Positions 2,577 to 55,472 of a DNA stretch of 64,000 nucleotides are shown in pieces. The position numbers and the translations under genes were made by a program. The notes beneath the pieces are model-generated. The model was not told the DNA's origin and did not search any database. It worked only from the letters and a program-made list of their open reading frames with translations. Origin of the DNA: Gracilibacillus orientalis (GTDB lineage Bacteria; Bacillota; Bacilli; Bacillales; Amphibacillaceae); NCBI RefSeq assembly GCF_900114645.1, contig NZ_FOTR01000008.1, positions 1 through 64,000 of the forward strand, in the 5' to 3' direction. Positions within the stretch are counted from its first letter, which is position 1. Each line of letters begins with the position of its first letter.

Positions 2577-3077
2577 TTAGGTTGATTCATTTGAATGCTT
2601 GTCGAGAAAGTCGCCAAGCTTGTCGAAGTGGTGCTCCATACTTGATCGTCGTTCAGTAAAAAACTTTTCATGGCTCTTTTTCATCATGCTTAATAATTTT
2701 GTGAAATCCTCAACCGCCAATGGCTCTTCCATTTCCATCAGATTCGATACATTTTGTAATTCTTTTAAAAGTTTCTGTTGAACTCTGATATGTTCTCTAA
2801 GTCGATCGATTTGAAGCGATACAATTTCGAATGGATTGTAATTGTCATCAGCTAGAATCGATTTAACTTCATCGAGTGATAAACCTAGTTCCTTTAATGC
2901 CAGTATTTGTTGTAGACGTGAAAGGTCAGATTCGTTATACAACCTGTATCCTGAGTTAGAATATCCAGATGGAGAATACAAGCCAATTTGATCATAATAC
3001 CGCAATGTTCGAACGGTTACCCCTGTTAATTTTGCAAGTTCCCCAACTTTCCAATATTTCTTACCTGCAATAATCAT
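2577..3077 (-). CDS. MerR family transcriptional regulator
   Basis: This 166-residue regulator has the MerR winged helix-turn-helix at about residues 9-76 (KVGELAKLTGVTVRTLRYYDQIGL, then GYRLYNESDLSRLQQI). A dimerisation coiled coil follows at roughly 80-125. The C-terminal tail is short and lacks the cysteines of the metal-sensing members, so the ligand is more likely organic. It probably binds its own unusual promoter and activates the downstream exporter cassette. The start ATG is preceded by a GAGGGG ribosome binding site. Part of the gene (2626-2748) is duplicated in degenerate form at the left edge of the window. Confidence 0.88.
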   Translation of the reverse strand: MIIAGKKYWKVGELAKLTGVTVRTLRYYDQIGLYSPSGYSNSGYRLYNESDLSRLQQILALKELGLSLDEVKSILADDNYNPFEIVSLQIDRLREHIRVQQKLLKELQNVSNLMEMEEPLAVEDFTKLLSMMKKSHEKFFTERRSSMEHHFDKLGDFLDKHSNEST

Positions 3078-17952: not shown

Positions 17953-18121
17953 ACAAAATTCACTCCCTATTTATAATATATCTTCCCAAATGATTTAAAT
18001 TATTTTTCATTTTATTTATGTTAGCGCTGTGACAAAGATATTATTTAAAGACAATAGTGAATTATCATAAGCTCAGATAATTTTAATTAAAACTTGTGCA
18101 GCCTCTATAATCAAAAATTAT

Positions 18122-18799
18122 CTAAACAGTGAGGAAATATGAACTTTCACCATTTAAATCCTTTTTCTCAACATTTACTAATCCCAAATGATCATTGATT
18201 ATTTGCTCAGCCAATATAGCATCACCGTTAGAAATAGCATCAAAAATTTGATGATGTTGAGAAACAATAATGTGCCAATCATGATTAATTAACTTTCTAG
18301 ACAATTTTAATCGATCGAACTGGATATTCATTTGCTTAACCATATTCCATGTCCGAACTTTTCCACATCCCTTATATACGAGACAATGAAATTCATCGTC
18401 TAATTCTAACAGTCGTTGATATGAGCCCTTCTCTAATAAAAAATCTTGTAATGTTAAATTAGTCTCTAGCTGTAACATCATTTCTTTATCTAAGGATATC
18501 ATTGCTTCTCTAATAATTGCTTTCTCAATATTTTCTCGAACGAATCGACCTTCCTCAACTAAATCCAAATCTATTTTTTTCACAATTGAACCTATTTGAG
18601 GAAAAGTACCTAAAAGTTCTTCTTGATTCAATTGCAAAAAAGCTTCTCTCACCGGTGTTCTACTTACCTTTAATTCGTCCGCTATCTCTTTATATGATAT
18701 TTTAGTTCCAGGTACAATTTCTCCATTCATAATTTGATCTTTCAATACGTTATACACATAATCCCTTGATGAACCTCTTGCTCGATTCTCACCAGACAT
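18122..18799 (-). CDS. GntR family regulator, FadR/FCD subfamily
   Basis: The 225-residue protein has an N-terminal winged helix (YVYNVLKDQIMNGEIVPGTKISYKEIADELKVSRTPVREAFLQL, with the GntR signature). A C-terminal all-helical FCD ligand domain follows (DDEFHCLVYKGCG, later SQHHQIFDAISNGDAILAEQIINDHL), whose His and Asp residues usually hold a metal and a small acid. Subfamily members often sense uronates or related sugar acids, which fits the GH115-like gene next to it. The ATG at 18799 was chosen because GGGGAGG lies at correct spacing. The direct-repeat element copy B lies about 175 bp upstream of the start. The leader also has a small GCGGGA/TCCCGC hairpin (18886-18908). Confidence 0.88.
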   Translation of the reverse strand: MSGENRARGSSRDYVYNVLKDQIMNGEIVPGTKISYKEIADELKVSRTPVREAFLQLNQEELLGTFPQIGSIVKKIDLDLVEEGRFVRENIEKAIIREAMISLDKEMMLQLETNLTLQDFLLEKGSYQRLLELDDEFHCLVYKGCGKVRTWNMVKQMNIQFDRLKLSRKLINHDWHIIVSQHHQIFDAISNGDAILAEQIINDHLGLVNVEKKDLNGESSYFLTV

Positions 18800-18973
18800 A
18801 GCTTCCTCCCCTTCATGGTAGTATCGTAGTTTTGTAAATGGTAATTTTACTACAGTCAATTAATAGAGGATCTTTTTCGTGTGGGGCGGGATAGGAACTT
18901 TTTCCCGCTATCTTAGCTTATTTGTTATTCTGAATAATAAGATAAATTCATTATTGTATAATTATTCATTATT

Positions 18974-19038
18974 ATGTTAACTTAGTTTTGCTATCTTTTC
19001 TTTATCATTTACCTATTAATATTTATGAATTTCCGACT
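18974..19038 (-). promoter_or_regulatory. gntR promoter with direct-repeat element, copy B
   Basis: The element at 19008-19038 reads AGTCGGAA and TAGGTAAA on the minus strand, with GG pairs 21 bp apart. A -10-like TAACAT (18974-18979) begins 34 bases from the second GG, the same distance as in copies A and C. The 12 bases beyond the proximal half-site (ATGATAAAGAAA) are shared with copy C. Confidence 0.65.
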
Positions 19039-19120
19039 CTTTTAATAAAATTCAGAAATATCAATGTCGAAAATCACTGATTTCTTATTCATTAGATATA
19101 GTTTGTCAGTATCTAATAAC

Positions 19121-19160
19121 AAAAAGAATAGATCTGAGAATGGAAGCAGATCTATTCTTT
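19121..19160 (-). terminator. Terminator after the esterase gene
   Basis: A perfect 14-bp stem (19123-19136 with 19147-19160) with a 10-base loop is followed on the minus strand by five T residues, 79 bp after the stop codon. Confidence 0.85.
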
Positions 19161-19238
19161 ATTAATGAATTTCCCAAATTAAAATAGTTTGCTTATCTAT
19201 GGTGTGGGAGACTATAACAAGATTTCCGCTCTATCCTG

Positions 19239-21215
19239 TTATCCTTCAAGCATTTCTTCTACCCAAACGTGGATAATGTCTAATTGTTCGCTACTCAAAG
19301 CTTTACCTTCTTGGGCACTCACTTGATTGAGGAATGCATTCACTTGATTATCTCTTGCTTTATTTTTTCCTTTCTCTTCCGAAGCTTTTGCTTTTTCTAA
19401 TTTTGAAGTTAGCGCATTGGTGATGCCTTTACCACCATTTACGTCATTTTCATTAATAAACGCGGTCACTAATGATGATAGGTTATCATAATTAACTTCA
19501 ACCTCAATTAATCCATCGGTTGCTGACTTGAGCGCGGAAATGGCTTCTAATAGTTCTGCTTCAGTTTCAACAGTTTCTACTGCTTCTTCTGCTGGTTCAA
19601 TTGCCAACTGAAGTTCCTCAAAAGATTCTGTTGTGTAGAAATAGTTGTCATTATCAATTGCTTGAGCTTCTTCTATGATTGCCTCTAATGGCTCGGTATC
19701 AACTGGTTTACTAATGAATTTCAACCTGTCAACACGTGCCGCCTCATAATGTTCAAAATTACCCTCAATCTTTATCAAGCTACCTTTCTGTATACTAACA
19801 TTTTCGAAATTCTTATTAGTTAACGAGATGCTATCTGCTCCAGCGGAAGCTAGATCACGGTCTGCAGTCCATGAACCAATAAGAGTATCACCTACATACA
19901 GGCTGTAATTAGATTCGCCGTCATTTTCATCAAAGTAATTGACTTGAATATCATACGTACCTGATGCCTCTGCAAATGTATAACTTGCAGTTCCTGTACC
20001 TGACGAAGGAACCTTAATATTATTCAAAAACGATGCTTCTTCATTATTCTCTATCGAGTAATTTGAAAGATCCATGCTCTCAGCTTCAACTATATGTTGT
20101 GTGACAGGTAGATCTAAGTATGTCTTTAAAATAGGAATCAAATGTTTAGCTACCTTTGTGTGCCCTAGACTAGTTGGATGAACACTCTCCCCCCCTTTAG
20201 CATAATCTTCTGTATCGGGGTCTTTATAGCCTTCAAGCCATCCCGTTGTATCAACATAGTGAACCTTAGTATCACCCGCATCAATTCTCGCATCAACAGC
20301 ATTGCTAACTTCAGACTCATACCAACCGTTGAAAAGCCTTAACGCAAATATCTCAGTATTGGGGTATAAATTCCTGAGGTATGTCAAAAAGTCAATATAA
20401 TGCTGTTGAAAAAGAGCTGGTTGGGCATCAGTGTAATAATCGTTTGAGCCAAGGTTTATCACAATAGCTTTAGGAGCATACGTTGAATGGTCCCAATCTG
20501 AGCTCGTTCTGTGATAAGCGGATTTCAGTCGGGAATATGCAATTTCCATATCTACAGTAGAAGATCCATATCCATCTATGAGTGCTATACCGGGATATGA
20601 AATTTGCGTGTGCTCACTCCCCAGTAGGTCACCTACCAACCATGGGAATGCACTTGCACTCCGATATTTAGTGTCATAACCACTAGTAATAGAATCACCT
20701 ATGAATTCAATAATCTTATTGTCAGAAATCGAAGGTTCTACTGTTGTTTCTCCAGAATCAAGTAACAATCCATTGAATACAATTTCATCTCTGTGAGAGT
20801 AGGTCGCAACCTTTAACGTATGCGTTCCCGAAGGTAATCCATTAGGTGTTAAATTAACTGTCCCATTAACATCTCTGATCAACTGATCACCAGTATCATT
20901 GATATTTACAATAAGTGATACTGTTTTGTCCAACTTAAGCTGTACACTTGAACCTGTAAACCTGACCTTCATGTATGCTCCATTCCAATAACTGTGATAG
21001 GAATCTTGATCGCTTTTATCCCATCGGCCGTAATACTCTATATTTGCATCACCAGGGTGCACTGCATTTGCCGTAGTTTGGGTAGTTGTCTTAGTAACAC
21101 TCGATCCGGCTGTATGAACAGAAATTGAATTTAAACAAAGTACAGCGAACATTATAGTAAAAGTAAACCATAGGACTCTAATGGCGCCCACTTTACTCTT
21201 TTTAACAGAATACAT
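19239..21215 (-). CDS. Secreted CE2-like SGNH esterase with CBM, FIVAR and FIMAH domains
   Basis: This 658-residue exported protein has a signal peptide (about 1-36). A beta-sandwich (56-160, with YYGRWD) and an SGNH hydrolase domain (165-370) form the layout of carbohydrate esterase family 2 acetyl esterases. Catalytic candidates are S175 in GDSIT and H346 in SVHP; N258 is in GSND. Position -3 from the His is Glu, not Asp. A carbohydrate-binding module of the CBM35/CBM6 kind follows (375-502, ending AARVDRLKF). Then come a FIVAR-like helical repeat (505-572) and a C-terminal FIMAH-like domain (573-658). It probably removes acetyl groups from xylan outside the cell. The last 73 bp and the FIVAR region are nearly identical to parts of the upstream 1591-residue gene. 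Confidence 0.82.
   Translation of the reverse strand: MYSVKKSKVGAIRVLWFTFTIMFAVLCLNSISVHTAGSSVTKTTTQTTANAVHPGDANIEYYGRWDKSDQDSYHSYWNGAYMKVRFTGSSVQLKLDKTVSLIVNINDTGDQLIRDVNGTVNLTPNGLPSGTHTLKVATYSHRDEIVFNGLLLDSGETTVEPSISDNKIIEFIGDSITSGYDTKYRSASAFPWLVGDLLGSEHTQISYPGIALIDGYGSSTVDMEIAYSRLKSAYHRTSSDWDHSTYAPKAIVINLGSNDYYTDAQPALFQQHYIDFLTYLRNLYPNTEIFALRLFNGWYESEVSNAVDARIDAGDTKVHYVDTTGWLEGYKDPDTEDYAKGGESVHPTSLGHTKVAKHLIPILKTYLDLPVTQHIVEAESMDLSNYSIENNEEASFLNNIKVPSSGTGTASYTFAEASGTYDIQVNYFDENDGESNYSLYVGDTLIGSWTADRDLASAGADSISLTNKNFENVSIQKGSLIKIEGNFEHYEAARVDRLKFISKPVDTEPLEAIIEEAQAIDNDNYFYTTESFEELQLAIEPAEEAVETVETEAELLEAISALKSATDGLIEVEVNYDNLSSLVTAFINENDVNGGKGITNALTSKLEKAKASEEKGKNKARDNQVNAFLNQVSAQEGKALSSEQLDIIHVWVEEMLEG
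19244..19316 (-). repeat. FIMAH tail repeat R1, copy 1
   Basis: 73 bp identical to 21456-21528. It encodes the end of the FIMAH-like domain (AQEGKALSSEQLDIIHVW and on) in the esterase gene. Confidence 0.9.
19564..19707 (-). repeat. FIVAR repeat R2, copy 1
   Basis: 144 bp identical to 21537-21680 except for one base (19595 G, 21568 A). It encodes the start of the FIVAR-like domain. Near identity at the DNA level points to recent gene conversion or domain copying between the two secreted proteins. Confidence 0.9.
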
Positions 21216-21301
21216 TCATTTTCCTCCTTCAATTTTCACTTCCATGAATATTGAATCAACATTATGAATCAGAAATCCCCGAACACATAGAATCCGCCAA
21301 A

Positions 21302-21315
21302 TGATAACGATTACT
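21302..21315. promoter_or_regulatory. cre-like site upstream of the esterase gene
   Basis: Read on the minus strand, AGTAATCGTTATCA has one mismatch to the CcpA consensus. It lies 87 bp before the esterase start. The nearby hairpin at 21380-21416 (TTTGGGAGACTG pairing with CAGTCCCCCAAA, one mismatch) lacks a T-run. Confidence 0.5.
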
Positions 21316-21450
21316 TAATGGTGGAAGAAGGCTCTAGAGCTACACCAATGTAAACTTCAATTTATACCTATTAATTAGATTTGGGAGACTGGGATACATT
21401 CCTCAGTCCCCCAAACTATCTGACTAATAGTCTATATGTTGTAGCGCCTG

Positions 21451-21528
21451 TTACTCTTCAAGCATTTCTTCTACCCAAACGTGGATAATGTCTAATTGTT
21501 CGCTACTCAAAGCTTTACCTTCTTGGGC
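21451..21528 (-). pseudogene. Out-of-frame FIMAH tail of the 1591-residue gene
   Basis: The last 25 codons of the FIMAH-like domain (AQEGKALSSEQLDIIHVW through EEMLEE, then TAA) are intact but one base out of frame with the upstream gene, which instead stops at 21515. Shortening the A6 run at 21530-21535 by one base would join the two frames. Compared with the esterase gene, 247 bp (19317-19563) are missing and replaced by eight bases (21529-21536). Confidence 0.75.
21456..21528 (-). repeat. FIMAH tail repeat R1, copy 2
   Basis: 73 bp identical to 19244-19316. Here it lies after the stop codon of the 1591-residue frame and is read out of frame. Confidence 0.9.
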
Positions 21529-24500
21529 CAAAAAAGGTTTCAACAGTTTCTACTGCTTCTTCTGCTGATTCAATTGCCAACTGAAGTTCCTCAAAAGATT
21601 CTGTTGTGTAGAAATAGTTGTCATTATCAATTGCTTGAGCTTCTTCTATGATTGCCTCTAATGGCTCGGTATCAACTGGTAAACTTAACTGCTCAACCAT
21701 TTGTTGATACATCCCATCGACAATCTCACTGTCTGCATCGGTGTCCACGATTACAGTTTCACTATGATCACCCTGAAGTACTGTAATAGAGTAAGAGCCC
21801 TCAGGTACATGGAAGTAATATTGAAGCTCCCCACTTGTATCCGTTTTATCCTTCAATCCATAGTTGTCAGTGAGTTCATTGTATGCAGCTGTATAAATGG
21901 CACCTTCTGAGTTAGCAATTTCCACAGTAGTTTCATCAGCAACATTACCATTTAATGCTATGTCTCCAGACAAATGATACAGTTCAGGAGCAGGTGGTTC
22001 TTCTGGAATCACGGTTAATGTGTATTCTCTATAGGCAGTTCCATCTTGTGCATCTACCCTTATTGTGATAGAAGATTCCGAGGTTAATGGAATCCGGTTA
22101 GAAAATTCACCACTTTCAACTTCCTGACCATTTATTGTTAAGCCCGCTGCATCCGTATTCAATGTCGCTGCAATTTCTATTTCACCGTCAGCAGTAGTTA
22201 CCCCTTTCACAGTGTAATCTGTGTTTTCTGGTGTAAAGGAAGGATTTAACTCACCAATTGATAGATTTATATCTGTTAAACTTGTATCTTTTTGAGCTGG
22301 TGTTCTTGTCACATCAATTGTGTATGTCTCGGTTGTAACGCCGTCCTCAGCTGTTACAGTTATCGTAATCTCATTTTCACCTTCATTTAGTGAAATAGCC
22401 TGTGATTCTTGACCGTTTTCTACTTCTTCTCCGTTTACCTCAACACTTGATACGAATTGGCTTGTAGTAGTTGGTGTCACTTGAATTTCATCAACATAGT
22501 TTCCAGCATCCACTGTATATCTTGTATCCGATACCTTAGTGAGTTCACCTTGGCTTATAGCGATTGAGTCAAGAGTCGAGTCATCCTTGGCATAAGGTAC
22601 GCCTTTAATAACGCGAATATTATCCATGTAAGCTTCTACCATGTTGCTGCTAGTCGCAGACACTTCAATCTTTTCTACATCTTCAATTTGACTTCTGAAT
22701 GGTGCATTATCCCAAATCATTTGTCCATCAATAATTAAATCAAATTCTTTTGTTATGATGTTCATCACAATTTGAACGTTATACCACTTTCCTTGCTCAT
22801 AAGGCATTACAGTTTCAGAAGCTCCGCCATTATAAGCTACAATGTTACCTTTATCAAAGGCAAAGCTCACACCTTTTTGGCCATTACTACCATAAATATA
22901 TGGAATACTTACCCATGAGGGACTACCATAAATATCATTTCTCATGATATCCGCTTCTACCGTGACAATACCAGTTAATTCTTCTGGTTCATAATTCTTA
23001 GTAAATGAAGTTACTCCACTATTCGTATCACGCTTAAAGTAGAACGCTGTGTTAGTAGAATCAGTTGGATCAGTAACTACAGTTACATCGCCACCATCTT
23101 TTGAAACGTCCCAATCCACAGGCAATTGCCCAGATTCAAAATCCTCATTAATTAGATATTCTGGGTGATTCCCTGTTAGGAACAGGTCTTCTTGAGGTGC
23201 AACATGAGCAGGAAATATTTCAATATCACTTATATGATCTGGATTATATCCTTCCTTAGTAGCCTTAAGGTTGTAGCCTGCACCGTGCAAGGCGCTATCA
23301 ATTACATATTCACCAGATTCGTTAGAAACCGTAGTATACTCGGTTTCATCTTTAGCAGTTAATGTAATAGTTGCTCCAGGCAAAGGCTCGCCATGTCCAT
23401 CTCGAGCAATACCACTTATCCCACCAAATTCAGTTGTTGGTTCCATTACTAGTTCAACATTTGATAATGTATTTGTAGATTCTACATCAACAACATCAGT
23501 ACCGGAATTGTACCCGTCTTTACTTGCTGTTAAGGTATAATCTGTACCAACAGGAACATTTAATAATGAGAAATAACCTGTTTTATCTGATTTATCACTA
23601 TATGTTTGCCCGTTAATCTCAACAGAAACTTCGGCTCCTATAACTCTATTGCCATTAGTATCCTTTACTTTTCCTGTAACTGATTCAGTAGTACTATTTT
23701 CGGATCCATAATATTCAAAAGCACCAACATCTGGTGTTCCGTGATAGACTGAATTTCCTGCCATATCTTGTCCACCATTGTTTGCTACTTCAGCTCCAGC
23801 ACCAATTAATGGAGAACCTGATAATAGTTTATACCCATCTAAAGAATCTAAAGCTGGACCTGATTCCTCTGTTCCTTTTCCACCTGTATTTACAGCTGCC
23901 AGCATTGGATCGATCGTAATTGCATTCTCATCATCTGCAGGAATTGGGAAATCGGCACCATAATAACTATTATTGTTATAACTAGCACCACCACCTGTAG
24001 TGAAGACCGCATCATCTCTTGTAGAGTATAGAATGTTATTATAGATATTGTATTCGGAATTCATAAATATCCCATAACCATACACCATGTATTTACTTTC
24101 TTCATTGTAAATCGTGTTATTATAAATTTCTGCAGTTGCAGCACTATTAGAATGGAGATAAACTGGATAGCGATCCGTATTCTCAACAACATTGTAACGT
24201 ACAATGACATCTCCAAAATCGAATTGGCAAAGTAAAAATCCATCACCAGTGTCATGAACATAGTTATACTGGAACACAGTATTGGTTGTTGCTTTATCTG
24301 CGTCAATACCGTTATGATCGGCACCGCCAGCTTTTCTTCTAGTATCAAATACTTCGTTATACTGAACAACTACATCATCTGTATAATACAGCTCAATGCC
24401 TGATGTTCCTGCACCAGCAACAACATTATTCTCAATTAGTCCATCTTGAACACTTGTGAAATAAATAGAGTTACAACCGTAATCTGTATCATATTGATCT

Positions 24501-26290
24501 AAATAGTTGTTTCGAATCGTTACGTTGGTATGCGGTGTAAACGTCTCATCACTTGGTGAATCATATATACCCCAGCCTACCTTTTCTGCACCTTCGTTAA
24601 CTCCTGCATATTGCTTGATTATAATTCCACCGAATGAAGTGTTTTTAATGCTTGAGTTCTCAACAATAACATCATTAAATGTCGTTGGATTTCCAGGATT
24701 AGCAGGATCCTCTACAGTGGTATCAAATACAATACCCCCTGTTCTTTTCGAATTATCCCAGCCTGTTCCCTTTTCAATACCTGGTCTTGGTGGATTCTCA
24801 GGACTACCACCTATCCAATTAACTTCACCACTAACGTCGTGAACGGATACATCGTTGATTCTAAAATGATTTAATTGTGTTCCGTTATCACCTGTAATGT
24901 GGATACCTCGGTAATTCCCTAATGATTCAGCAAATGTTGTCTCAACAGGAGGTTCATTACTCACATCAAGGTTATTAATTCCCCAATAGGATTGGTTTTT
25001 CAGATAAACCGCTGCACCAAATTGACCTTTACCTTCAATCTTTGGCTTATCACCTGATCCATATTGATCAATAACAATAGGTTTATCTGAATCACCAGAT
25101 CCCTTTGGATAAAGTTGGCCAGTCCATGATTGTCCAGCTTTTAATAGTATTTTATCTCCTGGTTCAAAAGTTGTAGCATTTACTTTATCTAAAGATTTCC
25201 ATGCTGCGTCTTCCGTAGTACCATCATTGTCATCGTTTCCATTTGTAGCATCTACATAATAGACGTTTCCATCAACAGCAGGTGCTGCTTCTCTTGTAAC
25301 GTTAATTTGATACGCTACTTTCGTTCCGTCCTCTGCTGTTACTTCAAGGGTAAATTTATTCTCCCCTTCAATCAAAGAAAGTTCGTAAGCTGCACCACTA
25401 ACAACCTCATCTCCCTGTATATCAATAGAAGCATTTGAACTCTCCGTAGTAGGCGTTACATTAATACTTGAAGTATCAAATGGGACACTGGTAGAGTAGT
25501 TTGTATCATCAACATTAAATGTCCCTGCATCACTGGATAATGAAGCTAGTGTGGCATTGTCATCCACAACATTTGCATTTTCTTGAGCAATACGCACATT
25601 GTCAAGATAAGTTTCCATTACATTGCTGCTGTTAGCATAGAATTTCACTTCGGCAATATCAGAAACTGATTCTCTAAATGCATAATCATCAGCTACCAAT
25701 GTTCCATCAACATATAAATCGTAAGTTTGTGAGTCAATATCCAACACGAACTTAAGGTTATACCATTGGTCTTTTTCATATTCCATTACATCTACTGTAG
25801 TATTTCCATCACGAGTTTTAATTACCCCGTCATCAAAAGCTGCACTAATAGCCCTATTACCATTTGAACCAAAAATATATGGAACGCTTGCCCAGCTAGG
25901 ATCACTGATAACTCCATCGTTTCTCATAATATCTGCTTCAACAGTAACAATACCAGTCAATTCTTCACCAGCAGCGAATTTCTTAGAGAAACTTGTTTCC
26001 CCACTATTTGCTTCACGTATCATACGTAAAGCATGGTCACCTCGGGGCGATTCAACTACTTCTACACTCCCGCCCGATTCAGAAATATCCCATTCAGCTG
26101 GGTCGAAATCGCTTTCGAAATCTTCATCTACTAAATAATTTGATTCTCCTGTACTTTCAGTAGCACTGTCAGAATTTGCACTCACTTCGGTAGTAACAAA
26201 GACTGCACTAAAGGTTTGTAAAACTAATAGAAAGATTAAAAATAATGCTACCCTACTGTTTCTTTTTTCCACTGACTTATACTTTTTCAT
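21515..26290 (-). CDS. Large secreted multidomain beta-helix protein, C-terminus truncated
   Basis: The 1591-residue product has a signal peptide (about 1-38). Its domain order is a concanavalin-like sandwich (48-235, DEDFESDFDPAEWD) and a cadherin-like beta-sandwich (about 245-335). A right-handed parallel beta-helix (about 342-850, opening YYVDATNGNDDNDG) comes next. Two carboxypeptidase-regulatory-like domains (about 862-1012) follow. A second concanavalin-like sandwich (1018-1215), two more cadherin-like domains (about 1220-1410), a further beta-domain and a cut-short FIVAR repeat complete it. The two sandwich-plus-cadherin blocks are clearly related, so the gene grew by internal duplication. 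Beta-helix enzymes include polysaccharide lyases and hydrolases; I cannot assign a catalytic site. The gene has its own element-bearing promoter. Confidence 0.8.
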   Translation of the reverse strand: MKKYKSVEKRNSRVALFLIFLLVLQTFSAVFVTTEVSANSDSATESTGESNYLVDEDFESDFDPAEWDISESGGSVEVVESPRGDHALRMIREANSGETSFSKKFAAGEELTGIVTVEADIMRNDGVISDPSWASVPYIFGSNGNRAISAAFDDGVIKTRDGNTTVDVMEYEKDQWYNLKFVLDIDSQTYDLYVDGTLVADDYAFRESVSDIAEVKFYANSSNVMETYLDNVRIAQENANVVDDNATLASLSSDAGTFNVDDTNYSTSVPFDTSSINVTPTTESSNASIDIQGDEVVSGAAYELSLIEGENKFTLEVTAEDGTKVAYQINVTREAAPAVDGNVYYVDATNGNDDNDGTTEDAAWKSLDKVNATTFEPGDKILLKAGQSWTGQLYPKGSGDSDKPIVIDQYGSGDKPKIEGKGQFGAAVYLKNQSYWGINNLDVSNEPPVETTFAESLGNYRGIHITGDNGTQLNHFRINDVSVHDVSGEVNWIGGSPENPPRPGIEKGTGWDNSKRTGGIVFDTTVEDPANPGNPTTFNDVIVENSSIKNTSFGGIIIKQYAGVNEGAEKVGWGIYDSPSDETFTPHTNVTIRNNYLDQYDTDYGCNSIYFTSVQDGLIENNVVAGAGTSGIELYYTDDVVVQYNEVFDTRRKAGGADHNGIDADKATTNTVFQYNYVHDTGDGFLLCQFDFGDVIVRYNVVENTDRYPVYLHSNSAATAEIYNNTIYNEESKYMVYGYGIFMNSEYNIYNNILYSTRDDAVFTTGGGASYNNNSYYGADFPIPADDENAITIDPMLAAVNTGGKGTEESGPALDSLDGYKLLSGSPLIGAGAEVANNGGQDMAGNSVYHGTPDVGAFEYYGSENSTTESVTGKVKDTNGNRVIGAEVSVEINGQTYSDKSDKTGYFSLLNVPVGTDYTLTASKDGYNSGTDVVDVESTNTLSNVELVMEPTTEFGGISGIARDGHGEPLPGATITLTAKDETEYTTVSNESGEYVIDSALHGAGYNLKATKEGYNPDHISDIEIFPAHVAPQEDLFLTGNHPEYLINEDFESGQLPVDWDVSKDGGDVTVVTDPTDSTNTAFYFKRDTNSGVTSFTKNYEPEELTGIVTVEADIMRNDIYGSPSWVSIPYIYGSNGQKGVSFAFDKGNIVAYNGGASETVMPYEQGKWYNVQIVMNIITKEFDLIIDGQMIWDNAPFRSQIEDVEKIEVSATSSNMVEAYMDNIRVIKGVPYAKDDSTLDSIAISQGELTKVSDTRYTVDAGNYVDEIQVTPTTTSQFVSSVEVNGEEVENGQESQAISLNEGENEITITVTAEDGVTTETYTIDVTRTPAQKDTSLTDINLSIGELNPSFTPENTDYTVKGVTTADGEIEIAATLNTDAAGLTINGQEVESGEFSNRIPLTSESSITIRVDAQDGTAYREYTLTVIPEEPPAPELYHLSGDIALNGNVADETTVEIANSEGAIYTAAYNELTDNYGLKDKTDTSGELQYYFHVPEGSYSITVLQGDHSETVIVDTDADSEIVDGMYQQMVEQLSLPVDTEPLEAIIEEAQAIDNDNYFYTTESFEELQLAIESAEEAVETVETFFGPRR
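21537..21680 (-). repeat. FIVAR repeat R2, copy 2
   Basis: 144 bp matching 19564-19707 with one mismatch. It encodes the last FIVAR-like residues of the 1591-residue protein and ends at the deletion junction. Confidence 0.9.
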
Positions 26291-26325
26291 TCTTCTCCTC
26301 CTCTTTTTTCTTTCAAAATAAACAA

Positions 26326-26339
26326 TTAAAGCGTTTTCA
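26326..26339. promoter_or_regulatory. cre-like site in the leader of the beta-helix gene
   Basis: TTAAAGCGTTTTCA has one mismatch to the CcpA consensus. It lies 36 bp upstream of the start codon and downstream of the predicted promoter, a position suited to roadblock repression. Confidence 0.55.
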
Positions 26340-26395
26340 TTTTTTAAGGCCTGAATAATGGAATATGTAACCCTCCTTTATAATTATTCACCATC

Positions 26396-26460
26396 ATTCT
26401 AGTCCATTTCGTTAAGTTTTTCTTTATCATTTACCTACTAAACATTATAAAATACCGACT
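26396..26460 (-). promoter_or_regulatory. Beta-helix gene promoter with direct-repeat element, copy C
   Basis: The element at 26430-26460 reads AGTCGGTA and TAGGTAAA on the minus strand with GG pairs 21 bp apart. A -10 box TAGAAT (26396-26401) begins 34 bases from the second GG, as in copies A and B. Between here and 26732 I see only AT-rich sequence. Confidence 0.7.
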
Positions 26461-26732
26461 ACTTATTAAAAAAAGGAGAATATGATATAATTTACGACTA
26501 TATTTATTCTTAATAGAATTATTTAATAAAGTATCACCTGTAAAATGACCGACTTCGATAATAGGAATTTATAAAATGCATTCGAAGGTGAGCAATTATC
26601 AAAATACTAAAGGAAAAGGAGAAAGATAGAACTAGTTTCCTGATACAAAAAAGCCTGCATGTTATATTGAAAAAAACAGTAAATCCATAATCAATTTTCA
26701 AGAAAATATTGAAAGGATATTGATTTGCACAT

Positions 26733-26766
26733 AAAAATCTCGGGTTCTTATTGAAAAAACCCGAGA
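26733..26766 (-). terminator. Terminator after the DUF1456 gene
   Basis: A 9-bp stem TCTCGGGTT/AACCCGAGA (26738-26746, 26758-26766) is followed on the minus strand by five T residues. It lies about 115 bp after the stop codon. Confidence 0.75.
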
Positions 26767-26880
26767 GACCTGAAATCGAAAATGTTTATTCTAATTTTGA
26801 AATTTACTTTTTAATTACATACCAAGTCAGGTGAACGGTTTATTCCACTACTTGTAGATACTATGTCCCTATACCTTTCC

Positions 26881-27393
26881 TCAGCCCCTATACCTAACAG
26901 TCAATCCCTTCAATAAATTTCGTGCATATTTATCTCCGCATTCTTTGAAATTCTTATGTCCCTTTTTCCTTAATAGGGCTCCTAATTCACTTTTGGTAAT
27001 AGTGACGCCTGCTTCTTCTAATAGTTCAATAATATCCTCACTTGTTAATGTTAGTGCTATTTTTATTTTTTTGAGAAGGATGTTATTAGCAGGTTCATTG
27101 GACAATGGTGGTCTTTCAGGTTGTCCCGGTTTTGGCTCTTGTTTTCCTCTTTTAAAAATGATTAAGCCATTTAAAAATAACTCTAAATTCTTATTATTGA
27201 CATTTATACTCTCTTCATCATCTGCTGGATCAAAATCATCCTCATAATCGTAATCATCTTTGGGTTTTGTGAGCATTTTTTGCACTTCTTCTTTTGTCAC
27301 TTCAATGCCACCAAGTTTAAAAATCTCTACCATATCTTTATCTTTAATATCTAATGCGTATCTTAGTCTAATTAATATATCATTATTAGTCAT
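26881..27393 (-). CDS. DUF1456 family protein (YehS-like)
   Basis: The 170-residue protein consists of two repeats of the DUF1456 module, each starting with a helix like NNDILIRLRYALDIKDKDMVEIFKLGG and NNILLKKIKIALTLTSEDIIELLEEAG. An acidic linker (KDDYDYEDDFDPADDEE) separates them, and the FLNGLI helix of the first repeat follows. The family is widespread and its function is not known. The ATG at 27393 follows GGAGG by seven bases. It is a single-gene unit. Confidence 0.87.
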   Translation of the reverse strand: MTNNDILIRLRYALDIKDKDMVEIFKLGGIEVTKEEVQKMLTKPKDDYDYEDDFDPADDEESINVNNKNLELFLNGLIIFKRGKQEPKPGQPERPPLSNEPANNILLKKIKIALTLTSEDIIELLEEAGVTITKSELGALLRKKGHKNFKECGDKYARNLLKGLTVRYRG

Positions 27394-27475
27394 CAATAAA
27401 CCTCCTACAAAGGGAACAGAACGGGACTGTTCCCTTATCCACTTTCATTAACAGTATACCTGTTTATTTTAGTTG

Positions 27476-28855
27476 CTACAATTTCCGCTCCAACCAACAA
27501 ACATTCTCAATGTGCGTCGTCTGCGGAAACATATCCACTGGCTGCACTTCTTTTGTCTCATATCCGCCATCCTCTAATATCCGCAAATCTCTTGCTAATG
27601 TAGATGGATTACAAGATACGTAAACAATTCGTTTTGGTTTCATCTCTAGCATAGCTTCCAGTAATGCCTCGTCACAGCCTTTTCTTGGTGGGTCTACGAC
27701 AATAACATCTGGCTGCAGGCCTTGTGCTCGCCACCATGGCATTACTTTCTCCGCTTCTCCTACAAAAAATTCTGCATTGTCTATGTGATTTAGCTTCGCA
27801 TTTTCTTTTGCATCACTTACTGCTTCTGGTACGATTTCCACACCGTATACCTTTTTCGCCTTTTGTGCCAGAGATAACGAGATTGTTCCAATACCACAGT
27901 AGGCATCAATCACTGTTTCACTTCCTGAAAGATTCGCATATTCTAACGCTTGATCATATAATTTTTTCGTTTGTGGCGGGTTTACTTGATAGAATGATTT
28001 AGCAGAAATGGCAAACTTGATATCTCCAATCTGATCGTAAATGTATTCTTCCCCCCAAAGTACTTTCGTTTTATTTCCGAGAATAACGTTCGTACGGTCT
28101 GGGTTAATATTTTGCACGACCGATTTAACATGAGGATTTGTTTCGGTTATTTCCTTGATCAGTGTATCTAACCCAGTTACTTTTTCTTTTCTTGTTACTA
28201 ATACAACCATCGTCTGCTTTGTTTCTTGACCAGACCTCACCATAATATGACGTAAAATACCACGGTTATTTTTCTCATCATAATGAGGGATACCTAACCG
28301 ATTGGCAATTTCACGCACCGCCTCAACCATGCGGTCATTGACCTCATCAGTAATGATGCAGCGGGCCATATCATCAATAATTTCATGACTTCTTTTTCGA
28401 TAAAATCCAGTTATTAATTCACCATTTTTCGATCCTACTGGTATTTGAACCTTATTGCGATAACGCCAAGGATCATCCATGCCGATCGTTGGATGAATCG
28501 GTATATTTTCAATATGGCCGATCTTTTTCAAGGCGCTTTGAACTTGATTTCGCTTCATTTCGAGCTGCATCTCATAACTCATGTGCTGCAGCTGACATCC
28601 ACCACATTTATAATACACATTACATGGTGGTTTGACACGATCTTCACTTTCTTCTCTTACTTCTATTAATCGACCGAATCCGAAGTTCTTTTTGACCTTT
28701 ATTACTTTCACTTCTCCTGTTTCACCAGGTAATCCATTAGGAACAAAAAGCGGATAGCCGTCTACTTTTCCAACTCCAGCACCTTCGTGCGTAATATCTT
28801 CAAATGTTAATTCGATTGTTTGATTTTTCTTCACAGGTGGGGCTGTTTTTGTCAT
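27476..28855 (-). CDS. rlmD: 23S rRNA (uracil-C5)-methyltransferase, RumA/RlmCD type
   Basis: This 459-residue enzyme methylates C5 of uracil in 23S rRNA using S-adenosylmethionine. It has an N-terminal TRAM domain (about 8-68). The 4Fe-4S cluster ligands are C78, C84 and C87 ([10 protein letters not shown]) with C166. A Rossmann methyltransferase domain carries [11 protein letters not shown] for cofactor binding, and the catalytic Cys is in [12 protein letters not shown]. The B. subtilis homologue YefA (RlmCD) modifies two positions (U747 and U1939), and this one may too. AAAGGA precedes the start. The dgkB neighbour is shared with B. subtilis. Confidence 0.92.
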
Positions 28856-52880: not shown

Positions 52881-52916
52881 TAAGAAAAGGCTTGATTTAG
52901 ATCAAGCCTTTTCTTA
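52881..52916 (-). terminator. Terminator of the VOC gene
   Basis: A perfect 16-bp stem (52881-52896 with 52901-52916) and a 4-base loop, followed on the minus strand by ATTTTAACTTTTT. It lies beyond the 51-bp repeats, about 215 bp after the VOC stop codon. Confidence 0.75.
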
Positions 52917-54087: not shown

Positions 54088-55344
54088 TCATTCTTTTGAG
54101 AATCCAATATCTTTTCTATAGAAAAAGTCGTCGTTTTGATCAAATCGTTTCAGATATTGGTAGATTTCTTTTTGTGCTTGTTCCGGGCTGTCCTGAATTG
54201 AACCTACTAGAAGAACACGACCACCTGTTGAATAGAATGATCCATCTTGCGACTGACCTGTTCCAGCATGGATCACATATACCTGATCATTTGCCTTAAG
54301 ATCTGGGAGGACCACATTTTTAGCATATGAACCAGGATACCCCTTCGAAGCAACCACTGTCCCGATCGCATAACCATTCTTCCATTGAAATTGTGGATCT
54401 TTTCCGGCAGTTACGTCTTCAATTACTTGAATGAGATCATTTTCGAGAAGAGGCAATACCACTTGTGTTTCGGGGTCACCGAATCGCGCATTAAATTCGA
54501 TGACTTTAGGTCCTTCTTTCGTCTCAATCAGACCACCGTAAAGCACCCCGGTATATCTACGACCTTCCTTTTTCATTCCTTTTGCAACAGGCTTGAGTAT
54601 TTTTTCAACCGTAAATTCTACAAGTTTTGGGTCTAAATCCGGTACCGGAGAAAAAGCACCCATACCACCAGTGTTTGGACCTTCATCATTGTCATAGGCA
54701 CGTTTATGATCGCGAGCAGGTACCATAGGATACACATTTTCTCCATCAACCAAAGCAAAAAGGGAGAACTCTTTTCCTTCTAAATATTCTTCGATAACTA
54801 CTCTGCTTCCAGCTTCCCCGAATTTGTTATCGGTCAGCATATTGTCCACTGCGTCTAACGCTTGTTGCTCTTTCATTGCAACTACGACACCTTTTCCAGC
54901 GGCAAGTCCATCTGCTTTTATGACAATTGGTGCACCTTCTTGTTGTACATATGCTTTTGCTTTTTCAACATCAGTAAATGTCTGGTATTTGGCAGTCGGT
55001 ATATCATATTGTTTCATAAATGCTTTAGCAAAGTCTTTGCTACCTTCAATAAGAGCAGCTTCTTTTTTAGGGCCGAATACTTTGAGGTTTTTTTCTTGGA
55101 AAGCATCTACTACCCCTTTGGTTAATGGAACTTCAGGACCCACAATAGTCCAATCTATTTCTTCTTTCTGTGCAAAAGCGACTAATTCTTCAATCGCATC
55201 ATCTTTGATTGGAACACAAGTTGCATCTTGTGCAATACCGCCGTTTCCTGGTGCGGCAAAAATTTCTGTTACACGCTTGCTCAGCTTTAGTTTTTTGACG
55301 ATGATATGCTCACGACCACCGCCACCAATTACTAATACTTTCAT
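54088..55344 (-). CDS. purD: Phosphoribosylamine-glycine ligase
   Basis: The 418-residue ATP-grasp enzyme makes glycinamide ribonucleotide, the second step of de novo purine synthesis. It has the N-terminal GGGGREHII phosphate loop and the ATP-grasp segments PIVIKADGLAAGKGV and GPNTGGMGAFSPVPD. The metal-binding IEFNARFGDPETQ and the C-terminal domain with GGRVLLVGS follow. AGGAGG precedes the start. It lies 162 bp after purH, separated by a hairpin, whereas the other pur genes overlap or nearly touch. Confidence 0.96.
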   Translation of the reverse strand: MKVLVIGGGGREHIIVKKLKLSKRVTEIFAAPGNGGIAQDATCVPIKDDAIEELVAFAQKEEIDWTIVGPEVPLTKGVVDAFQEKNLKVFGPKKEAALIEGSKDFAKAFMKQYDIPTAKYQTFTDVEKAKAYVQQEGAPIVIKADGLAAGKGVVVAMKEQQALDAVDNMLTDNKFGEAGSRVVIEEYLEGKEFSLFALVDGENVYPMVPARDHKRAYDNDEGPNTGGMGAFSPVPDLDPKLVEFTVEKILKPVAKGMKKEGRRYTGVLYGGLIETKEGPKVIEFNARFGDPETQVVLPLLENDLIQVIEDVTAGKDPQFQWKNGYAIGTVVASKGYPGSYAKNVVLPDLKANDQVYVIHAGTGQSQDGSFYSTGGRVLLVGSIQDSPEQAQKEIYQYLKRFDQNDDFFYRKDIGFSKE

Positions 55345-55472
55345 GAAAGGCCTCCTATTTTTGCGAAAAATGAGATAATGATATGATTACGAATTATAAT
55401 CGTATTATTGCGAATATCGTGTTCTTTATTGAAACCTAATAATATGACATTTTCTCACTTTCTAGACAGCAA

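Follow-up and report, generated by a model that had tools for sequence, protein, structure and literature searches.

A probable deletion scar in a C-terminal module shared by neighbouring esterase and beta-helix protein genes of Gracilibacillus orientalis

Two adjacent genes of Gracilibacillus orientalis, read in the same direction, share near-identical DNA at their ends, and the frame of one of them breaks at a run of six A. Is this break a genuine deletion scar, a slippery run by which a protein tail is switched on and off, or an error of sequencing or assembly? We addressed this question in a window of 64,000 nucleotides, the whole stretch of DNA that was analyzed, and extended the comparison to the rest of the genome and to related genomes. 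The intact gene (19239–21215, minus strand; ORF and Pfam evidence) encodes a 658-residue esterase with CE2_N and GDSL lipase domains, followed by a C-terminal FIVAR-like and FIMAH tail. The broken gene (21515–26290, minus strand; ORF, Pfam and PDB sequence matches) encodes a 1591-residue right-handed beta-helix protein, hereafter the 1591 protein, with a truncated C-terminal module. Most likely, the scar reflects a genuine deletion, recent and ordinary, within a C-terminal module that the two genes share, and the enzyme is shortened and otherwise complete.

Pfam assigns Beta_helix, CBM-like, CarboxypepD_reg and Cadherin-like domains to the 1591 protein. Its beta-helix region is similar in sequence to solved lacto-N-biosidases, as four of its five distinct PDB sequence matches at E ≤ 0.001 carry that name (5gqc, E 4.8e-23; 7v6i; 24mr; 6kqs); the highest-ranking of the five, 7v6m (E 2.8e-33), is annotated as a fibronectin type III domain-containing protein. 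We take the family of these lacto-N-biosidase relatives to be GH136. However, the 1591 protein falls far below the NCBIfam LnbX equivalog cut-off (80.3 bits versus 2500) and also differs from the LnbX-type enzymes in its neighbours, which are genes for a GH115 protein, the CE2 esterase, a GntR regulator and a sugar ABC transporter. Given these neighbours, we infer that its substrate is another glycan, and gene content suggests a xylan-type glycan locus. The esterase and the 1591 protein both have N-termini that look signal-like by eye, which may point to secretion of the two proteins. The 1591 gene also contains an internal repeat (25860–25966 and 22881–22984, 77% identity, approximately residues 109–144 and 1103–1137). 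This repeat fits two Sialidase-like CBM stretches that Pfam finds in the protein, as well as a double alignment to one region of a Paenarthrobacter protein.

BLASTN of the two gene ends shows that homology starts at the module boundary, and it reproduces the coordinates and block sizes of the initial annotation. Of the FIVAR-like block, the 1591 gene retains the first 144 nt (21537–21680, minus strand), 143/144 identical to the esterase copy (19564–19707, minus strand), with an E value of 4e-72 that excludes chance. These proximal copies are near-identical direct repeats lying 1,973 bp apart. The distal similarity covers 82 nt with two mismatches (21447–21528 versus 19235–19316, 80/82, both on the minus strand); it includes the esterase stop codon and runs 4 bases past the stop codons of both copies. 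Within it lies a perfect run of 73/73 nt from the esterase FIMAH end (21456–21528, minus strand), most of which is situated past the stop of the 1591 gene. Between the two blocks, 247 nt of the esterase module (19317–19563, minus strand) are missing from the 1591 gene and replaced by an 8-nt filler (21529–21536, minus strand), which reads CTTTTTTG on the coding strand and CAAAAAAG on the plus strand and holds the A6/T6 run (21530–21535). On both sides of the gap, identity to the esterase is 99–100%. The frameshift and early stop attributed to this replacement can be read directly, as the 1591 frame follows the shared sequence as far as VETVET, after which come six foreign residues, FFGPRR, and its stop. 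In a frame other than that of the 1591 protein, the distal remnant can be read through to its own stop.

The shared blocks were found only in these two genes. A DNA search of the whole genome (4,611,824 bases in 29 contigs), in which 40 of 55 candidates were scored, gave 41 matches at E ≤ 10, three of which belong to the esterase and 1591 genes, while the next best match to the blocks had an E value of 0.02. The only place in the genome that matches a 13-mer spanning the junction exactly is the scar itself. Allowing one mismatch adds 12 further places, compared with 8 for the reversed pattern, which is near chance. The filler is absent from the esterase module and may have been copied from elsewhere, given that two further copies of the 8-mer, oriented alike, lie at 18635 and 26646 (within the 18001–28000 interval examined). 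At neither place does the match extend by a single base on either side, so neither can be named as a template; the window as a whole holds six copies of the 8-mer per strand. No microhomology was seen by eye at the breakpoints. A promoter and terminator scan of 18900–21800 returned 7 and 0 sites, respectively, not above the numbers from shuffled sequences (10.3 and 1.4).

The esterase was originally described as ending in FIVAR followed by FIMAH, and the second name stands. The esterase exceeds the FIMAH (PF22888) cut-off (26.0 bits versus 24.8; 28.5 bits for the tail alone) and does so at its C-terminus, like the other translated FIMAH ends of this genome, although the match extends only over positions 2–67 of the 81 in the profile. 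The 1591 gene, in contrast, retains just the last part of the domain, and its protein has no FIMAH match at E ≤ 1. The name FIVAR (PF07554) proved too specific, with no match at E ≤ 1 in the esterase or in either window copy. Two tails of similar sequence, taken from two further genomes of the family (G165 and G047), come near the FIVAR cut-off, at 28.8 and 26.2 bits versus 29.2, and the esterase block is predicted to form three helices, as described below; we therefore use the label FIVAR-like. Those two genomes together provide 16 matches to the block or the tail at 39–58% identity. In G165, a relative with a genome of 2.9 Mb, there are 15 matches to the FIVAR-like tail, and the five loci that were translated (L042, L049, L052, L057 and L061) all end, by eye, in a sortase-type LPxTxT signal. 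A search of one literature collection for the FIMAH domain found no paper, and we state no function for the tail.

An AlphaFold model of the esterase tail (residues 505–658, no alignment) was used to relate the missing DNA to structure. The model has a mean pLDDT of 61 and a pTM of 0.45, with ten-residue block means of 66–92 over model residues 1–70 and 38–49 beyond. In the FIVAR-like part, helices are predicted at 4–18, 25–44 and 48–63 (means 66–92). The FIMAH part shows helices at 72–85, 91–108, 115–130 and 138–153 at low confidence (means 38–49), and it is thus used as a helix count only. The lost 247 nt correspond to approximately esterase residues 552–633, or model residues 48–129, and take in helices 48–63, 72–85 and 91–108 together with nearly all of 115–130. 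According to the model, the 1591 gene lacks the last of the three FIVAR-like helices and roughly three of the four in FIMAH, and neither domain is whole in any frame.

The genome encodes seven FIMAH ends above the cut-off, the esterase among them. Nine of 14 control genomes also matched the profile at E ≤ 1, with none above the cut-off, so only the seven above-cut-off matches were used. The DNA around these seven loci (approximately 3.2 kb each) has in common one 24-nt match between two loci and no other long match. Separately, a protein that by eye looks sugar-binding (L031, G000:C14:214817-214906) seems to end in an early portion of FIMAH (profile 2–31; 12.7 bits, E 0.76), a match that may be due to chance.

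Relatives of the 1591 protein are few and end in different ways. A search of 100 relatives gave two matches at E ≤ 1e-30, from genomes G056 and G007. The first (31% identity over residues 242–872) ends in FIMAH, at 88 bits, with no FIVAR match, and the second ends in an LPxTATN sorting signal. Both lack the combined tail, and no 1591 orthologue with an intact FIVAR-like and FIMAH tail was found among the 100. The closest long relative found is a hypothetical protein from plasmid pTC2 of Paenarthrobacter aurescens TC1, which matches residues 344–1427 at 43% identity, indicating that this part of the 1591 protein is complete; its C-terminus is unrelated to the 1591 tail. When the search was widened to the order and the class (samples of 397 and 398 genomes, including this one), only the gene itself was returned at E ≤ 1e-40 and 1e-60, respectively, with at most two candidates per genome scored among the matches listed, so that relatives may be missed. 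A scan of genome contigs yielded three distant partial matches. For the esterase, the catalytic part had no match at E ≤ 1e-10 in the 16 other genomes of the genus, two of which match it in the tail only. As judged from these sequences, the terminal module varies within the beta-helix class, with FIMAH among the observed ends but not universal.

Taken together, we favour, with a probability of roughly 0.8, a recent duplication or gene conversion of the module followed by a deletion with filler that broke the 1591 copy. The 1591 gene would once have had the same FIVAR-like/FIMAH module as the esterase, presumably as a full copy, and the near-identity of the modules would derive from a recent local duplication or gene conversion with either gene as the donor. 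Homology that extends from the module boundary to 4 bases past the stop, in adjacent and codirectional genes, fits such an event. A later break may then have been repaired by a process of the end-joining type, with 247 nt lost and 8 nt gained, which would have destroyed the 1591 module and shifted the frame. End joining with filler is a fair guess, as the genome codes for Ku (192.6 bits) and, according to an excerpt of PMC3656841, purified LigD of Bacillus subtilis, with the aid of Ku, ligates and realigns mispaired 3′ ends. The real deletion scar, one of the options left by the initial annotation, is well supported by both flanks and by the unique junction 13-mer. In its favour are also the FIMAH end known in the beta-helix class (G056) and the seven in the genome itself, whereas the lack of an orthologue with an intact tail and the different ends of the G007 and Paenarthrobacter proteins count against it. 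With the rest of the 1591 gene open and its enzyme part complete, the product is probably a working protein that would do without the terminal FIMAH tail. The locus thus offers a clear and, by sequence identity, recent case of how adjacent enzyme genes can come to share C-terminal modules and later lose them; otherwise, it is ordinary gene decay.

An error of sequencing or assembly, with the true 1591 gene having a full tail or a scar of another run length, is unlikely, but it draws some weight from the draft state of the genome (29 contigs) and from the near-identical direct repeats. An excerpt of PMC3711429 also describes lone frameshifted genes without clustered counterparts as likely to reflect an indel mutation or a sequencing error. 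Such an error could lie in a chimeric read, in faulty gap closure or in a miscalled length of the run. Collapse of near-identical repeats, as suggested at first, is an unlikely cause of the scar: collapse merges or drops copies but does not write CTTTTTTG, the junction does not consist of repeat-copy sequence only, and its 13-mer occurs nowhere else in the genome as an exact match. The scar and both shared blocks amount to 225 nt and would just fit a read if the reads were 250 nt long, and the assembly has a completeness of 100% and a contamination of 0%. The homopolymer runs counted below have little bearing on the error rate, since the ORFs that contain them were picked as open.

We consider it quite improbable that the A6 run switches the tail on and off by slippage in replication, transcription or translation. 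The distal remnant is indeed open to its stop in another frame, the initial annotation had proposed that loss of one A from the run would restore the frame into the FIMAH end, and Listeria inlA offers a phase-variable parallel in which the frame breaks at an A run of similar length (A7/A6). An excerpt of PMC2831843 estimates that the A6 to A7 change in inlA is about 1000 times as frequent as a point mutation, with 4.5e-10 for the latter. However, this amounts to only about 4.5e-7, and the same excerpt reports A7 to A6 as not significantly different from an A2GA4 control. A run of six nucleotides is also short, although rare slippage at this length is possible; according to PMC1088944, selection against slippage is evident at nine nucleotides in a large proportion of genomes, and a run of 8 As is called non-slippery, which leaves the present run below the length at which frequent slips are expected. 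Moreover, runs of at least six are common here, with 95 (two of them G) in 45 ORFs of the window, where a run within two overlapping ORFs would be counted twice. These 45 ORFs are those taken as genes from 48 of at least 150 amino acids, after three that overlap (273–1025, 1151–1660 and 54824–55378) were left out. Above all, in contrast to inlA, the frame is broken here by the replacement of 247 nt with 8 nt, which cost parts of two domains, and the run lies inside the filler. Because the deletion took helices of both domains, a slip at the A6 run restores neither: the tail within reach would still lack the third helix of the FIVAR-like part and some three of FIMAH, and the other frame would add little beyond the last FIMAH helix, as far as the low-confidence FIMAH model goes. 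No known domain would be switched, and the few relatives that turned up show no comparable break. The case illustrates that a homopolymer found where a frame breaks is not necessarily a switch; here the domains to be switched are gone.

It is very improbable that the scar is one state of a tail-exchange locus working by recombination between the 144-nt direct repeats. If this were the case, recombination would excise the esterase gene and join the whole FIVAR-like/FIMAH tail of the esterase to the 1591 protein, and a population would hold two forms, one with an untailed enzyme and a tailed esterase and the other with a tailed enzyme alone. Hardly credible is a history of two separate gene-conversion patches over an older tail, with the 8 nt as its relic and a full near-identical copy never present, since the patches would have to meet within 8 nt where one deletion suffices, even if the filler is not found in the esterase module and no long DNA match links the other FIMAH genes to that module or to each other.

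Apart from the module shared by the two genes, other repeats are present in the window. A 123-nt direct repeat (1–123 and 2626–2748, 96.7% identity) has its first copy as a fragment at the start of the contig (C7) and its second within a 166-residue ORF (2577–3077), which we take to encode a MerR-type regulator. Upstream of the 1591 gene and of the GntR-type gene (18122–18859) lies a shared element on the same strand (26418–26474 and 18996–19050; 57 and 55 nt, 82% identity), which could be an operator common to genes of the glycan locus. Finally, positions 52881–52916 form a 36-nt near-palindrome with AAGCCTTTTCTTA-type arms that is terminator-like by eye.
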